A DNA stretch of 64,000 nt, taken from positions 992,001-1,056,000 of the forward strand of contig NC_017668.1 in NCBI RefSeq assembly GCF_000284515.1. Direction: 5' to 3'. Positions 2 through 42,460 of this stretch are shown here, piece after piece. A model generated the notes under the pieces. That model was given only the letters and a program-made list of their open reading frames with translations. It was not told where the DNA came from and searched no databases. A program made the translations under genes and the position numbers. This DNA is from Halobacillus halophilus DSM 2266 (GTDB lineage Bacteria; Bacillota; Bacilli; Bacillales; Halobacillaceae). Numbering within the stretch: the first letter of the stretch is position 1; the number at the start of each line of letters is the position of its first letter.

Positions 2-133
2 GAATACTGGCAGAGTTTTTTCCATAAGTGGAAGTGGCATCCTTATCATTTAGATAAGGATATTTTTATGGCACCTGAAAAAATTAATAAATTGGATGAA
101 AAGTACAGATGTCCCAAGCCAGTCTTACAGTAA
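2..133 (+). CDS. C-terminal end of an unidentified protein (partial)
   Basis: An open frame enters from the left edge and ends at TAA 131-133, giving 43 residues rich in Trp, His and Lys (it begins EYWQSFFHKW and ends KYRCPKPVLQ). The next gene starts inside it at 109, so translation is probably coupled. The neighbours suggest a glycan or lipid-linked sugar pathway, but the fragment is too short to name. Confidence 0.5.
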   Translation, partial: EYWQSFFHKWKWHPYHLDKDIFMAPEKINKLDEKYRCPKPVLQ

Positions 134-504
134 GGTCTAAGTTCCAGCAGCAAATTCAGCGTTTTTTAGTTACAGGGGTATCAGCAGTTCTTGTTGACAC
201 CCTCTTTTATTTCTTGTTGATACAAGTAATATCAACATCTTTATCTAAGATGATATCTTTCCTATGTGGTACGATCTTAGCCTACATTCTGAATAAATTT
301 TGGACATTTAAAAAGAAAGCAAAATCTCATATCGAACTTTTTCAGTATATGGGTTTATATTTATCGACTTTAGGCATAAATGTTGCTTCAAATATGCTCT
401 TTCTTACTTTTACTTCAAATAAAATTATTGCTTTTGTTTTTGCTACAGGTATCAGTGCTTCATTAAATTTTATTGGACAGAAATGGTGGGTGTTTAAAGA
501 ATGA
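109..504 (+). CDS. GtrA family membrane protein
   Basis: This 131-residue protein has about four hydrophobic segments (roughly residues 17-37, 42-60, 78-97 and 103-122). It carries the GtrA-type pattern of a short basic N-terminus, FLVTG, and NKFWTFKKK between helices 2 and 3. GtrA proteins are thought to help move undecaprenyl-linked sugars across the membrane or to assist a GT2 partner. The gene overlaps the previous frame by 25 bases and its stop overlaps the ATG of the glycosyltransferase (ATGA), which fits a GtrA-GT2 pair in one operon. The exact substrate cannot be read from the sequence. Confidence 0.85.
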   Translation: MSQASLTVRSKFQQQIQRFLVTGVSAVLVDTLFYFLLIQVISTSLSKMISFLCGTILAYILNKFWTFKKKAKSHIELFQYMGLYLSTLGINVASNMLFLTFTSNKIIAFVFATGISASLNFIGQKWWVFKE

Positions 505-12294: not shown

Positions 12295-12512
12295 GCATCA
12301 TTCATAAAAATTATTTAAAGATAGTTACGGGCAAATGTTTAGTTTCAATTATTTCATTAGGTACACATCGTAATCTTTTCCTCTATTAACGAGGATAAAG
12401 AGATTCTATAGTATCTGAGGAGAATTAATTTATTTAAGAATAATTACAGAATATTAGAAAAATACCTAAAGAAACTATTGGAAATAAGTATAAAATAAGG
12501 TAAGATTTATTT

Positions 12513-12664
12513 AGGGTTTCTGGGGATTTATGTCACTTATACTAACATATTTGCCTTGTGTAAGCAGGGTTGGCAGAATTGTGTGGCTTGGCTTGCATAT
12601 AGTTTCACTCGCAGCTCTTGCTCAGAGCTACTCGTAAAACTATATGCAGCATAGCAGAAACCCT
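12513..12664 (+). ncRNA. Retron msr-msd RNA (predicted)
   Basis: The region upstream of the effector gene has the layout of a retron primer-template RNA. A 10-bp inverted repeat (AGGGTTTCTG at 12513-12522 with CAGAAACCCT at 12655-12664) would be the a1/a2 stem. A long hairpin pairs 12594-12604 with 12637-12647 (11 bp, GCATATAGTTT) and has an inner AGCTCT/AGAGCT stem at 12613-12618 and 12624-12629; this is the likely msd. Between a1 and the msd, CTTATAC 12536-12542 can pair with GTGTAAG 12558-12564 (one G-U), a plausible msr stem. The branching G cannot be fixed by eye; the first Gs after a1 are candidates. Confidence 0.72.
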
Positions 12665-12696
12665 TTATAATATACATAATTGGCGGGTGATAGAAA

Positions 12697-13629
12697 ATGA
12701 GTACAAGAATTTACACCCCAGCTTTAATTCAGAAGCTAAAGGAATATCATACTAAAAATCATTACAGGACAGCTAACATGCCTGTATTTCTTTTTTTATG
12801 CGGTAAAGAATTTGATGTTGGTTCACAAGAAAACTCAACAAGTAATAGAGTTCTAGTGAAAAATTTCTATAAAAATATTGGTAGAGATGATGTCTTCTGC
12901 ATATTTGCAGAAGATTTGTGGAGTAATCAGGTCATACCTAATTTAGATCTTTTATCTTTTGAGGATTTTTTAGCTGAATTAAGCGACTATATTGTTCTAT
13001 TTATTGAAAGTTTTGGAACGGCTTGTGAGCTTGGAGCATTTGCTATGAGAGATGAGTTATTAAAGAAGTTAATTGTGTTAGAATTTGAAGAATTTAAAGG
13101 AGTAGAATCATTCATTAACGACGGACCTGTGAAGAAGGTTCTTAATAACCATTCTTCTAATGTGTTTTATGTCCAAGAACAAGCTATATTCTCAAATAGT
13201 GACTTATATGATTTATTGATTAGTCTAGGGAAAAAGAAAAAAGCTGTAATTAATACTAAAGAACAAAGTGTGAAATTGAACTCTTTCCTGATTGAAATAA
13301 TTGAACTGATCTCTTTACTTGGTCCAATAAATAGTAAAGATTTAGTTAATATGTATAAAGAAATTAAAGGGTTTAATAGTTTTAATTTTTCACTTGAACA
13401 AGTAAATAATAAAGAGAGAAAAGGAAGCAAAGTAAATGTACAAAACATATTAAACCTTCTATGTATGGCAGGTATTATTAAAAATATTAATAATTATTAC
13501 TCATTAGAGAAAAAACATTTTAGTTATATCAAATTTATGTTTGAATTAACAAACGAAGAATTTTATTCTATAAGAGCTACCTTACTTTCACGTATATATA
13601 AATATGATAAAGGAGCAATTGAAGCATGA
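12697..13629 (+). CDS. Retron effector: deoxyribosyltransferase-like domain plus C-terminal winged-helix-like region
   Basis: This 310-residue protein has an N-terminal domain with FLFLCGKEFDVGS, IFAEDLWS, and ESFGTACELGAFA at about residues 105-117, followed by SFINDGP. The E-S-x-G-T-x-x-E-L-G block is the nucleotide-binding signature of nucleoside deoxyribosyltransferase-like proteins and of type II (Ec86-like) retron effectors. The C-terminal half looks helical and may be a DNA-binding winged helix. Gene order (RNA, effector, RT) is that of Ec86/Eco1. The stop overlaps the RT start (ATGA). The sequence is very AT-rich, suggesting transfer. Toxicity on loss of msDNA control is inferred from known retrons. 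Confidence 0.83.
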   Translation: MSTRIYTPALIQKLKEYHTKNHYRTANMPVFLFLCGKEFDVGSQENSTSNRVLVKNFYKNIGRDDVFCIFAEDLWSNQVIPNLDLLSFEDFLAELSDYIVLFIESFGTACELGAFAMRDELLKKLIVLEFEEFKGVESFINDGPVKKVLNNHSSNVFYVQEQAIFSNSDLYDLLISLGKKKKAVINTKEQSVKLNSFLIEIIELISLLGPINSKDLVNMYKEIKGFNSFNFSLEQVNNKERKGSKVNVQNILNLLCMAGIIKNINNYYSLEKKHFSYIKFMFELTNEEFYSIRATLLSRIYKYDKGAIEA

Positions 13630-14564
13630 GCATGCTAGAAAGGATAAGTAATGATTTAAATCTCAAAGTATCCTTTATAGAAAATGTATTAAAACACCCT
13701 AAGAAGCAATATAGAATATACTATATAAGGAAAAGGAATGGTGGTCAAAGAAAAATATATCACCCTAGCCCTGTGTTAAAAACACTACAATATTGGTTGG
13801 TAAACAATGTTTTTAATGAATTTAACGTATCTATATATGCGACAGGTTACATAAAAGGTAAGTCTATTAAAGATAATGCTGAAGCTCACAAAGATAGTAA
13901 TTTCATATTGAATATGGACATTGAAAATTTTTTTGAGTCTATTAATAAAAAACATGTGAATGAACTTGTTAACGCAAACGGGGAATACTCTTCACTAGAT
14001 ATTTATCATTTAAATAAAATTTGCTTTTATGGAGACTTTCTGCCGGTGGGTAGCGTTTGTTCCCCTCATATTTCAAATTGTATTATGTATAAGTTTGATA
14101 ATGAAGTGGTTGAAAAGTTGCCAAATAACTTTCGATACACACGTTATGCTGATGATATTACCGTATCCTCATCTTCTTATATAAATGATAATGTTCAAGT
14201 TATCTTAGAGGAGTTATTAGAAAAGTACGAATTTAGAGTAAATCATAATAAAACAAGGTATATGTCAAAAAAACAATCACAAATGATAACGGGTTTAAAT
14301 GTAAATGACGGGAAAGTAACTATTGGAACAGATATAAAAAAACAATTAAAGAAAGACTTATATAACAATTTAACCAAAGGTACTGGAGACTCTGAAGTGA
14401 TTTTAGGAAAGTTAAACTTTTTAAAAAGTATAGAACCAGATTATTTTAACAAATTAATTATTAAGTATTCAAAATACGCTAACGTTCTAAATAAACTAAA
14501 AAATGATGTTAAGGAACAAAAAAATATCCCCATTGAAATTAATAAAAGTATCGAGCACACATAA
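13626..14564 (+). CDS. Retron reverse transcriptase
   Basis: This 312-residue reverse transcriptase contains YADD at residues 174-177 (catalytic Asp pair), NMDIENFFESI (motif A with the first catalytic Asp) and LPVGSVCSPHISN (motif B). It also has the retron-type features NAxxH (DNAEAHKDSN, region X) and ITGLNVNDGK in place of VTG in region Y, and a basic C-terminal tail with KSIEPDYFNKLI. The length matches stand-alone retron RTs, not group II intron RTs, which would carry maturase and endonuclease domains. It would copy the msd part of the RNA at 12513-12664. It overlaps the effector gene by four bases. Confidence 0.93.
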   Translation: MSMLERISNDLNLKVSFIENVLKHPKKQYRIYYIRKRNGGQRKIYHPSPVLKTLQYWLVNNVFNEFNVSIYATGYIKGKSIKDNAEAHKDSNFILNMDIENFFESINKKHVNELVNANGEYSSLDIYHLNKICFYGDFLPVGSVCSPHISNCIMYKFDNEVVEKLPNNFRYTRYADDITVSSSSYINDNVQVILEELLEKYEFRVNHNKTRYMSKKQSQMITGLNVNDGKVTIGTDIKKQLKKDLYNNLTKGTGDSEVILGKLNFLKSIEPDYFNKLIIKYSKYANVLNKLKNDVKEQKNIPIEINKSIEHT

Positions 14565-15130
14565 ATGTGTTTTTTATAAATGTTAAGTGGATTTTAAATG
14601 ATCTTTAAGATAAACATCTAACGTCATTTTTATATGGGGTTATAATTAACATCAATAGAAAAGTTTTAATTTTGGAAAATGTTCTCTCTAGAAAGTCCTT
14701 TAAACTTTCTCCTTATTTAGCTGACTTAATGAGAAAAGTCCCACAAGAAATCACTTGCTTAATTTGAGCAACTATTTTAGATTAAATTCAACCCTGTACA
14801 ATAGAAAAGTAAGTAGTTGAACATAGTTTAATAGCTGACAATGTTGAGGTCAGCAGTTCGAGCCCGGTATGATCCACCCGCAAAATCGCTTAGTTAGTTC
14901 TTATTAGTTAGCGATTATTCCCTAACGAGTGCGCCTTTTAGTTTGGTTTATCCAAATTAGAAGGTGTCTTTTTTTATGGTAAAAAGAATTTAAATATCTT
15001 GAGGGTTAATCATACAACTCAGTATCTGAATTAAACGAACTCCACCTTTGTAACGTACTGGGAAGTTTTAGCAAATGAATAGAAGGGAATATTTCTGATA
15101 GACAGTATTTCGTAAGGGAGGAAATAAGAA
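14565..15130 (+). other. Gap holding a tRNA-like fragment and a terminator
   Basis: No gene is evident. Around 14848-14880 there is a stretch that looks like the 3' part of a tRNA (CAGTTCGAGCCC followed by GATCCACC), but its T-stem does not pair and no 5' half is visible. It may be a remnant of an integration site at the right edge of the retron. A strong terminator follows at 14932-14976, then unremarkable sequence and the leader of the SDR gene. Confidence 0.35.
14932..14976 (+). terminator. Rho-independent terminator
   Basis: A hairpin of about 15 bp (arms CGCCTTTTAGTTTGG and CCAAATTAGAAGGTG, with G-U pairs) and a five-base loop is followed by a long T run. There is no intact gene directly upstream, which fits an orphan terminator of a lost tRNA or gene. 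Confidence 0.75.
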
Positions 15131-26306: not shown

Positions 26307-26377
26307 AAAAAAACCATACCTAAGGCAAGGTATGATTCCATCCTTAGTTTTTTATAGAGGGTGTAGCTAGAACCTCT
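26307..26377 (-). promoter_or_regulatory. preQ1-I riboswitch with attenuator
   Basis: Read on the minus strand, 26377-26344 is an almost exact class I preQ1 aptamer: an AGAGG...CCTCT stem, a C-rich loop with CTAGCTACAC, and the A-rich tail ATAAAAAACTAA that forms the H-type pseudoknot. It is followed by a terminator hairpin CATACCT/AGGTATG (26334-26315) and a U run. It should stop queCDE transcription when preQ1 is plentiful. A likely -10 (TATAAT on the minus strand) is at 26421-26416. Confidence 0.92.
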
Positions 26378-26477
26378 CCTGTTTTAAAACAGACTTTATT
26401 AAATTGACTTCGATTATTATAACACGACTGTACGAAAAAAGGGAATCTTAGCTTTTTTAAAAGGATTACGTTGTAGG

Positions 26478-28367: not shown

Positions 28368-28499
28368 TACTGTCTAATAGTGTATGAAATGTATAGGCTA
28401 TTTAACTAACTTTCTATAAATTTAAGTTTTTTGCCGTTTTCCTGTTGACTTCCTCACTCACTTTTGTATAATTATAAACATCAAATAATAAAAATACAT

Positions 28500-28736
28500 T
28501 CGCAGACGAAGAGAGTATGTATAAACGGAAGCAGCAGCGAGCCGGGGGTGGTGGAAGCCCGGTGGTTCATTTATACAGAAACGCACTTCTGAGAAGATCG
28601 GTGAACAAGTAGCCGGTTCCGGGAGCACCCGTTATCAGTTTCGAGTTGGTCTATGATTATAGACAATGAGAGTGGCACCGCGGATGGTTAAAACCAGAAT
28701 CCGTCTCTTACCAGAAATAAGAGGCGGATTTTTTTA
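28500..28736 (+). promoter_or_regulatory. T-box leader of argGH, probably arginine-specific
   Basis: The T-box sequence AGTGGCACCGCGG lies at 28671-28683, followed by a terminator with arms AATCCGTCTCTTA and TAAGAGGCGGATT and a T run (28698-28736). Upstream, Stem I can be traced from TGTATAAA/TTTATACA. In the specifier-loop position GAAACGCA the best codon is CGC (28582-28584), which is Arg. Uncharged tRNA-Arg would then favour read-through into argG. The specifier assignment is by eye. Confidence 0.85.
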
Positions 28737-31445: not shown

Positions 31446-32121
31446 GGCTTATTAAACAATAGGGCCGGATAGTTGAAGACTCAGTTTCGAGATATCGGGT
31501 GGATAAAGGGGCTCCAGGGAACGACTCTCTTTCCGCGGCCCTGCACGACGCAGGGTCGTTCGACGTTGCCACAGGACGTGGCGGTCTTAGTCGAACATCC
31601 CTTGTGTTGAGCTTCCTCAGGCTTCGCCTTCCGGGATCTCACCGATTATGTTCATCCCGCAGGAGTCTACGCCGTTCCCTTCCGCCCCTTTGCGATCATG
31701 GAGCGCTCAAAATTCCCTGACTAAACACCTTACAATGAACAAGGTCCATCTATAATTCACCCTGAGTTATTATGTTTGTTTACGTGTAGGATCCCTGTTA
31801 TAGAAGCACTTGAGGCAGATACAGCATGGCTCCTTTCTCCTATAGCAGGGGCCGTTCACCAGATATTGTTGGGGTGGCGGAGGAAACGACGAGACTCCCA
31901 CGGGAGAAGGAGCTAGGCGAGACCCCACAAGGAGTGTTAACGACTGAGGAGGCTTATTGTTAAAGGAGGATCGACTAAAATCGCCACGTCCTGTGGCAAC
32001 GTCGATCGACCCTACGTCTTGTAGGGCCGTAGGAAGCGAGTTGTTTCCGCAGCCGCCCTCATCTTTTGTTCGCAACGGACCCAATTTATCTCGAAACTAA
32101 GTCTTCAAGTAATGGGAGCTT
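31446..32121 (-). repeat. MITE-like composite hairpin repeat, copy 2 (A to B on the + strand)
   Basis: The A end (AACAATAGGGCCGGAT, then GAAGACTCAGTTTCGAGATA) is on the left and the B end (core, then AAGTAATGGGAGCTT) on the right. Both hairpin modules are present, at about 31509-31690 and 31871-32065. Each contains an extra nested hairpin insert of 65-70 bases (31537-31605 and about 31963-32028, in opposite orientation). It lies between argH and the stress-protein gene and is one of the two longest copies. Confidence 0.8.
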
Positions 32122-41825: not shown

Positions 41826-42460
41826 GTATAGGGACGATTACTGTAAGACTTAGTTTCGAGATATTGGATCATAGTGATGGCCCTGCGGGGGACGATTCGC
41901 TTTCCGCGGCCCTGCACGACGCAGGGTCGTTCGACGTTGCCACAGGACGTGGCGGTCTTAGTCGAACATCCCTTGCGCTGAACTTCCTCAGGCTGACGCC
42001 TTCCGGGATCTCACCCTTCATGTGCATCCTGCAGGAGTCTCGCCGTTCCCCTCCGGACCTTGCGATAGCTGTGACTCGAAATCACCCCGGAGTAACACTG
42101 GATTATGATGCAGGGAGAACCCTCAGAACACGTTTTATAGCTTGCCCACGTGGATTAAAACCATTATATGAGGTGAGCTTTCTCATTATTTTCAGGTTTG
42201 AATAGTAAGCGAATACTTGGGGACTTTTACGTTCTTCATACGCCCTATAGAATAAGAGCCATTCCTTGTTTTCGTCCATACATCTCTTGGTATTGACTTT
42301 CTCAATATCATCGCCAGGAGGTCCGGGAAATTTCGAGACTCCTATGGGATAATCGGACATGGTGAGATCCCACAGGTCATAGCCCGAGGAAGCTCACCGT
42401 ACGCCCATGGAAAGCGAGTGATTTCCCGGACCTCCAAACGAAGACTTATGTAACGGAAAT
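41826..42460. repeat. MITE-like composite hairpin repeat, copy 4 (ends degraded)
   Basis: The left core reads GTAAGACTTAGTTTCGAGATAT and the right core has decayed to CGAAGACTTATGTAACGG. The first module (41879-42060) carries the same nested insert as copy 2 (41908-41976). The second module, about 42317-42436, has arms AGGTCCGGGAAAT and ATTTCCCGGACCT. It lies between convergent genes. Confidence 0.72.

Follow-up and report, generated by a model that had tools for sequence, protein, structure and literature searches.

A probable Eco1-like (type II-A) retron in the chromosome of Halobacillus halophilus

Background

Does the chromosome of the Gram-positive Halobacillus halophilus DSM 2266 hold a complete retron of the Eco1 (Ec86) kind, and if so, how did it get there and what might it do? 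The question is raised by a stretch of 64,000 nucleotides of NC_017668.1 (positions 992,001 to 1,056,000, forward strand). This whole stretch is called the window here, and coordinates without a further label are positions within it. An earlier reading of the bare letters, the sequence-only reading, had pointed to a type II-like retron, consisting of a structured RNA, an effector and a reverse transcriptase (RT).

Judging from sequence comparisons, the locus is very probably an intact, horizontally acquired type II-A retron. It spans 12513-14564, from the start of the a1 arm of the RNA to the RT stop codon. It is assigned to the Eco1 kind because of its RT family, the family and fold of its effector, its RNA and its gene order, which all agree. 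In Eco1 the order is RNA, effector, RT. The window has this order too, on the + strand, as had been claimed.

By their model matches, the RT and effector families are already known and modelled. That experimental work is mainly on Proteobacteria is a fair statement, though PMC12548924 describes retrons of B. pumilus (III-A) and B. thuringiensis, and cites work on retron defence in B. subtilis. The literature searched, which leaves out the main retron surveys, yielded no tested II-A retron from Bacillota. It also gave nothing contrary to the suggestion that this retron is likely uncharacterised.

The two genes

12697..13629, + strand: NDT-like effector, 310 amino acids (aa), with a C-terminal domain; Glu111 aligned to Eco1 Glu106 (NF038232, NDT_II-A, fold)
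13626..14564, + strand: retron reverse transcriptase, 312 aa (NF038233, PADLOC RT_II-A, relative of Ec86 RT in the PDB)
12682..12690, + strand: possible ribosome-binding region GGCGGGTGA, 5' of the effector start (by eye)

The two open reading frames overlap via ATGA. Both are unbroken and keep their motifs. What can be read from the sequence is three parts, their order, whole active-site motifs, and an RNA structure in common with relatives.

The RT scores 288.6 bits against the NCBIfam model for the St85 retron RT (NF038233, cut-off 235). The top PADLOC model is RT_II-A (259.3 bits, E 1.2e-77), followed by RT_III-A (223.1 bits). These models are not exclusive: 62 PADLOC families match at E <= 1, and 29/29 members of the window RT group also match the I-A and III-A models at E <= 1e-10. 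The closest solved structure in the PDB is Ec86 RT itself (1.5e-35), with Ec78 next (6.9e-33).

YADD was found at residue 174, NAEAH (for NAxxH) at 84 and ITG, in place of VTG, at 221, all as read earlier; we take these to be the usual motif names for retron RTs. In an alignment of the window RT with 28 proteins (P0024-P0044, P0047-P0050, P0053-P0055), the residues R173-D177 (RYADD), D98, A85, H88, T222 and G223 are invariant. A protein database search with the RT gave 300 proteins at E <= 0.001. The best besides its own copy is 51% identical, among the 120 matches listed.

The effector scores 191.3 bits against the St85-family model NF038232 (cut-off 100), and its top PADLOC model is NDT_II-A (2.7e-47). 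The deoxyribosyltransferase-like block E-S-x-G-T-x-x-E-L-G is present as ESFGTACELG at residues 104-113. Within it, E104, S105, G107 and E111 are invariant in 21/21 aligned effectors, these being the window effector and P0003-P0022 (P0001 and P0002, which are 100% identical, were excluded). A phmmer alignment places Glu111 on the mutated Glu106 of the Eco1 effector. A Pfam scan of the effector found no domain above cut-off; PF28093.1 is assigned to all 22 effector homologues.

The predicted fold is two-domain and Eco1-like. Foldseek with the effector model returned only three entries at E <= 0.001, and all are the Eco1/Ec86 effector. VIA-align paired 260 residues with it over model range 4..303, which bears out the separate C-terminal domain of the sequence-only reading. 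The window effector differs from that of Eco1 in sequence, being 22-26% identical in structure alignments.

Could the RT come from a group II intron, a diversity-generating retroelement (DGR) or a defence-associated RT (DRT) system, with an incidental hairpin next to it? The RT does have weak matches to such families: 59.5 bits to the group II RT/maturase model TIGR04416, 58.7 to Drt3a and 36.7 to Drt2. These fall far short of the cut-offs (300, 200 and 390), while the St85 retron model is passed; the Ec67 fusion model is also missed (142.7, cut-off 450). A group II intron or DRT origin was rejected by these family cut-offs. Separation from DGRs comes solely from the family models, since the tree described below has no DGR clade. 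Furthermore, the adjoining effector belongs to a retron-only family, and the RNA is matched by an independent model. Taken as a whole, this alternative is extremely improbable.

The RNA

Upstream of the effector lies the third part of the retron, which has the following elements:

12513..12664, + strand: msr-msd-like non-coding RNA, ends set by a1/a2 pairing (fold, covariance model)
12513..12522, + strand: a1 arm AGGGTTTCTG, pairs with a2 (helices chosen by eye)
12553..12570, + strand: msr stem-loop SL1, arms 12553-12559 and 12564-12570, loop GTAA (pairing counts)
12576..12581, + strand: conserved GAATTG between SL1 and the msd stem (RATTG in 5/5)
12595..12647, + strand: presumed msd hairpin, basal stem 12595-12605/12637-12647, apical stem 12613-12618/12624-12629, loop TGCTC (fold; reverse transcription would follow from the retron assignment)
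12655..12664, + strand: a2 arm CAGAAACCCT (pairing with a1)

The region 12500-12680 has a folding energy of -58.9 kcal/mol (z -4.49), and 12513-12664 alone has z -4.26. In both cases 0/200 shuffles were equally stable. An Rfam scan of 12300-12720 gave nothing, even at E <= 10.

Four relatives have the same layout of structured RNA, effector and overlapping RT. L034 and L035 are genomes of the same phylum, as is L153, whose RT extends beyond its stretch. L028 is MT838926, a 'Bacteriophage sp.' scaffold without annotation; it may be bacterial, since a flank resembles threonyl-tRNA synthetase. Identity to the window proteins in L034, L035 and L028 is 32-35% for effectors and 37-40% for RTs. The five RNAs, window included, have fold z-scores of -4.3, -5.4, -7.6, -7.4 and -5.8, each with 0/200 shuffles equally stable.

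Pairing was counted over helices picked by eye in these five RNAs, a choice that leans towards pairing. The a1/a2 arms pair in 50/50 cells with two-sided changes at 9/10 positions, SL1 in 33/35 (3/7), the msd base in 53/55 (10/11) and the msd tip in 30/30 (6/6). The SL1 loop is GTAA in the window and GTTAA in the other four. RATTG follows SL1 in 5/5 RNAs, and the msd tip loop ends in CTC in 5/5. A MAFFT alignment of the five was set aside, as it misplaced the msd stems of the window and L035.

Because helices picked by eye favour pairing, reliance is placed on a covariance model. It was made from an alignment of the four relatives with a hand-entered structure, excluding the window; its E-values are rough, the msd columns of L035 are largely unpaired, and 3/4 sequences are close kin. 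Within the 64-kb window this model finds 12512-12665 on the + strand (48.7 bits, E 1.9e-8), and the sole other match at E <= 10 reaches 12.7 bits. A structure-free model of the same alignment, as a sequence-only control, has no match in the window at E <= 10. The structured RNA that the sequence-only reading had placed here rests on its stable fold and on a model made without it.

The model was also run over 61 other sources, including 45 of the best 80 viral loci, and gave six matches at E <= 1. The strongest are L036 (33.6 bits) and L072 (33.4 bits), at E about 2.6e-4. L032, L038 and L163 follow at 23.4 bits, and L070 at 20.9 bits (E 0.14). L036:3654-3812 and L072:482-632, both on viral contigs, have the same broad RNA architecture directly 5' of retrons that by eye resemble type I-A, with RT, ATPase and HNH-like parts. 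The idea that the RNA family is a private mark of the window clade was therefore dropped. These matches make the window RNA kin to the RNAs of other St85-family retrons. The sequences of its RNA and msd hairpin do differ from those of Eco1.

RT phylogeny and distribution

The sequence-only reading had proposed placing the RT in a phylogeny. This was done by maximum likelihood with 68 rows from 221 collected, and the intron RT of the genome added. The window RT sits in a set of 19 rows (support 95/99), nested in a set of 34 (98/90). Where known, origins within the larger set are Bacillota (L034, L035 and L153 of the same phylum; P0050 from Clostridium) or the L028 scaffold. No tested member of this clade was found in the literature searched. 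The intron RT stands far off on a long branch, so that the grouping with group II introns raised earlier did not appear. The supported clade stands, while the place among published retron clades does not follow, since the tree holds neither those clades nor the Ec86 RT; moreover 14/65 branches are open at deep forks, and several branches are long.

The II-A retrons of Klebsiella phage 4LV2017, E. coli pMTY2805, Vibrio HDW18 and Pseudomonas phage PfAC01b likewise have an annotated St85-family effector adjoining the RT. The RNA model also gives a weak match in 4LV2017 (23.4 bits, E 0.039). In contrast, their RTs fall in a separate set of 15 rows (98/93), with the I-A Ec78-type RT. The II-A RT of Phaeobacter has a long branch and is placed elsewhere in the tree. 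Further groups are made up of L009-L011 plus L033, and of L012 plus L013. As the II-A RTs fall in separate sets, one effector family is, in this sequence tree, paired with RTs of several lineages.

L009-L013 and L033 are type II loci from the same order or phylum. Like the window, they combine an RT with an NF038232 effector above cut-off. Unlike it, they have a spacer of 121-246 bases separating effector from RT (6/6), RTs outside the window clade, and no RNA-model match at E <= 1. Their spacers fold at z -3.2 to -6.2 (100 shuffles each), so their RNA probably lies between effector and RT and not upstream. By eye, the spacers of L009, L010, L011 and L033 have GACGGTTCGTC-like or CTTAGA/GTG.AC motifs in common.

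L014, from a same-order genome, has a divergent NDT-like effector frame of 369 aa that overlaps a 324-aa RT. This effector is under the NF038232 cut-off, the RT is on a very long branch, and the RNA model has no match at E <= 1. Next to the type II retrons of L028, L034 and L033, or 5' of them, IS3-type transposase-like frames were seen by eye; insertion sequences could possibly have mobilised these retrons.

At E <= 0.001, and counting the genome itself throughout, NF038232 is found in 1/22 genus genomes and 2/44 family genomes. In the order it is found in 11/397, 5 of them above cut-off, with 1/398 in the class draw and 4/398 in the phylum draw; these draws overlap. The window effector as query found 8/398 relatives. 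Searches of viral contigs with the window effector, the window RT, the effector alignment, the L034 effector or P0047 gave no relatives. The RT alignment gave 410, of which the best 80 were kept, with identity <= 38%. A genome-contig search with the window RT gave one match, in a metagenome-assembled genome labelled Candidatus Lokiarchaeota. This retron-like RT of 486 aa (L001:4401-5861) is extended at its N-terminus and shares 32% identity with that of the window.

Insertion site

12302..15058, no strand: stretch unmatched in congener G005 (genome comparison)
14835..14877, + strand: decayed 3' half of a tRNA-Ala(GGC) gene, adjoining the retron (88.4% over 43 bases, E 9.9e-9)

By this genome comparison, congener G005 shows an empty site. 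Its neighbouring sequence matches the window at 92.9% (up to 12301) and 88.3% (from 15059), and between these neighbours G005 has 137 bases versus 2757 in the window. The GC content of the retron is 29.0%, versus 39.7% and 41.9% in its neighbours.

Intact tRNA-Ala genes matching 14835-14877 are present in congener G002 and in the genome itself. In G002 the intact gene precedes the same downstream gene. The genome's own copy (L147, G000:C1:967775-967848) precedes the remnant by about 39 kb. G002 and this tRNA region have only the tRNA itself in common. The stretch from tRNA to remnant is syntenic with G005; identity is 88.4% in a portion close to the tRNA and 91.6-97.5% in the rest. An island brought to tRNA-Ala by an integrase found no support, though no search for integrases was made. 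Of two terminator-like sites, the better is a hairpin with a T-run at 14931-14967; G005 and G002 have hairpins that look similar by eye.

Polysaccharide-type genes were recognised by eye in the first 19 kb of the stretch that separates the intact tRNA-Ala from the remnant. A genuine retron at one end of such a region might be a toxin-antitoxin that stabilises the neighbouring exopolysaccharide region, or serve host physiology, and not mainly act against phages. Against this, G005 keeps the region without the retron, so there its maintenance does not require the retron, and the precedent in the family is phage defence. This possibility is unlikely.

The genome has five other RVT_1 matches (L002-L006), with 624-aa frames and identical scores. 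They are unrelated to the retron. L002 aligns at 73.8% with the maturase gene of a Halobacillus group II intron (on a plasmid, the best of 3 matching plasmid records). The window also contains a T-box leader (28494-28711), a PreQ1 riboswitch (26338-26382) and three Bacillaceae-1 RNAs (31959-32025, 31540-31606, 41911-41977). The Bacillaceae-1 RNAs and the plasmid match are compatible with the Bacillaceae host that had been suggested.

Possible function and trigger

According to PMC12405507, Eco1 forms filaments and defends by NAD+ hydrolysis. The window retron would, by analogy with the Eco1 family, work similarly. Its RT would bind the folded RNA, prime from the branch G just after a1, and copy the msd hairpin into multicopy single-stranded DNA (msDNA). 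RT, RNA and msDNA together would restrain the NDT-like effector. A phage that disturbs msDNA or RT would release or activate it, after which the effector would hydrolyse NAD+ through Glu111, and growth would stop before the phage matures. We infer msDNA synthesis and phage defence on the same grounds.

Several observations weigh against this reading. For the C-terminal half of the effector, sequence comparison with Eco1 gives nothing significant: phmmer matches residues 16-163 only. The deviation (rmsd) of the fold match is high, at 5.3, and 6.6-7.0 in Foldseek. PMC12548924 reports that the II-A retron Hch1, tested in E. coli, failed to protect against the phages of its panel. A simple promoter scan listed no sigma-70 match immediately 5' of the RNA; promoter-like sites number 10 in the region, fewer than the 16.3 of shuffled sequence.

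The missing promoter match, and presence in just one of the genus genomes, would also fit a decayed or silent retron that has kept its frames and lost expression or function. Both frames are intact with conserved motifs, though, and no mismatch interrupts the a1/a2 and msd stems where pairs were counted. Decay is very unlikely.

Asa1 and Squ1 are II-A retrons with NDT-type effectors, as in the window, and their phage defence has been tested. PMC12548924 states that both protect E. coli, that escape mutations are in a phage N6-adenine methyltransferase, and that both RNAs contain GATC, with the GATC adenine methyltransferase as trigger. Unlike these, the window RNA and its four relatives lack GATC in 5/5 cases. 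The trigger of the window retron would therefore probably be something other than the GATC methylation of Asa1 and Squ1. Methylation at other sites is a possible one.

A broader reading is offered tentatively, and it may well not hold. In this view, Bacillota would have a separate lineage of Eco1-like retrons, with an RNA architecture peculiar to it and a trigger other than methylation at GATC, and the window would represent this lineage from a cultured genome. The proposed architecture consists of SL1 with a GTTAA/GTAA loop, RATTG, and an msd tip loop that ends in CTC (5/5). NDT effectors would then have been combined with several RT-RNA lineages, each sensing differently.

The Eco1-like retron described here is complete, chromosomal and Gram-positive, with a defined RNA and a congener that has the empty site. 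If active, it would allow tests of whether an NAD+-hydrolysing effector and an msDNA sensor work outside the Proteobacteria, and of what triggers them there. Its RT might, if active, also be a source of single-stranded DNA within Bacillus cells.
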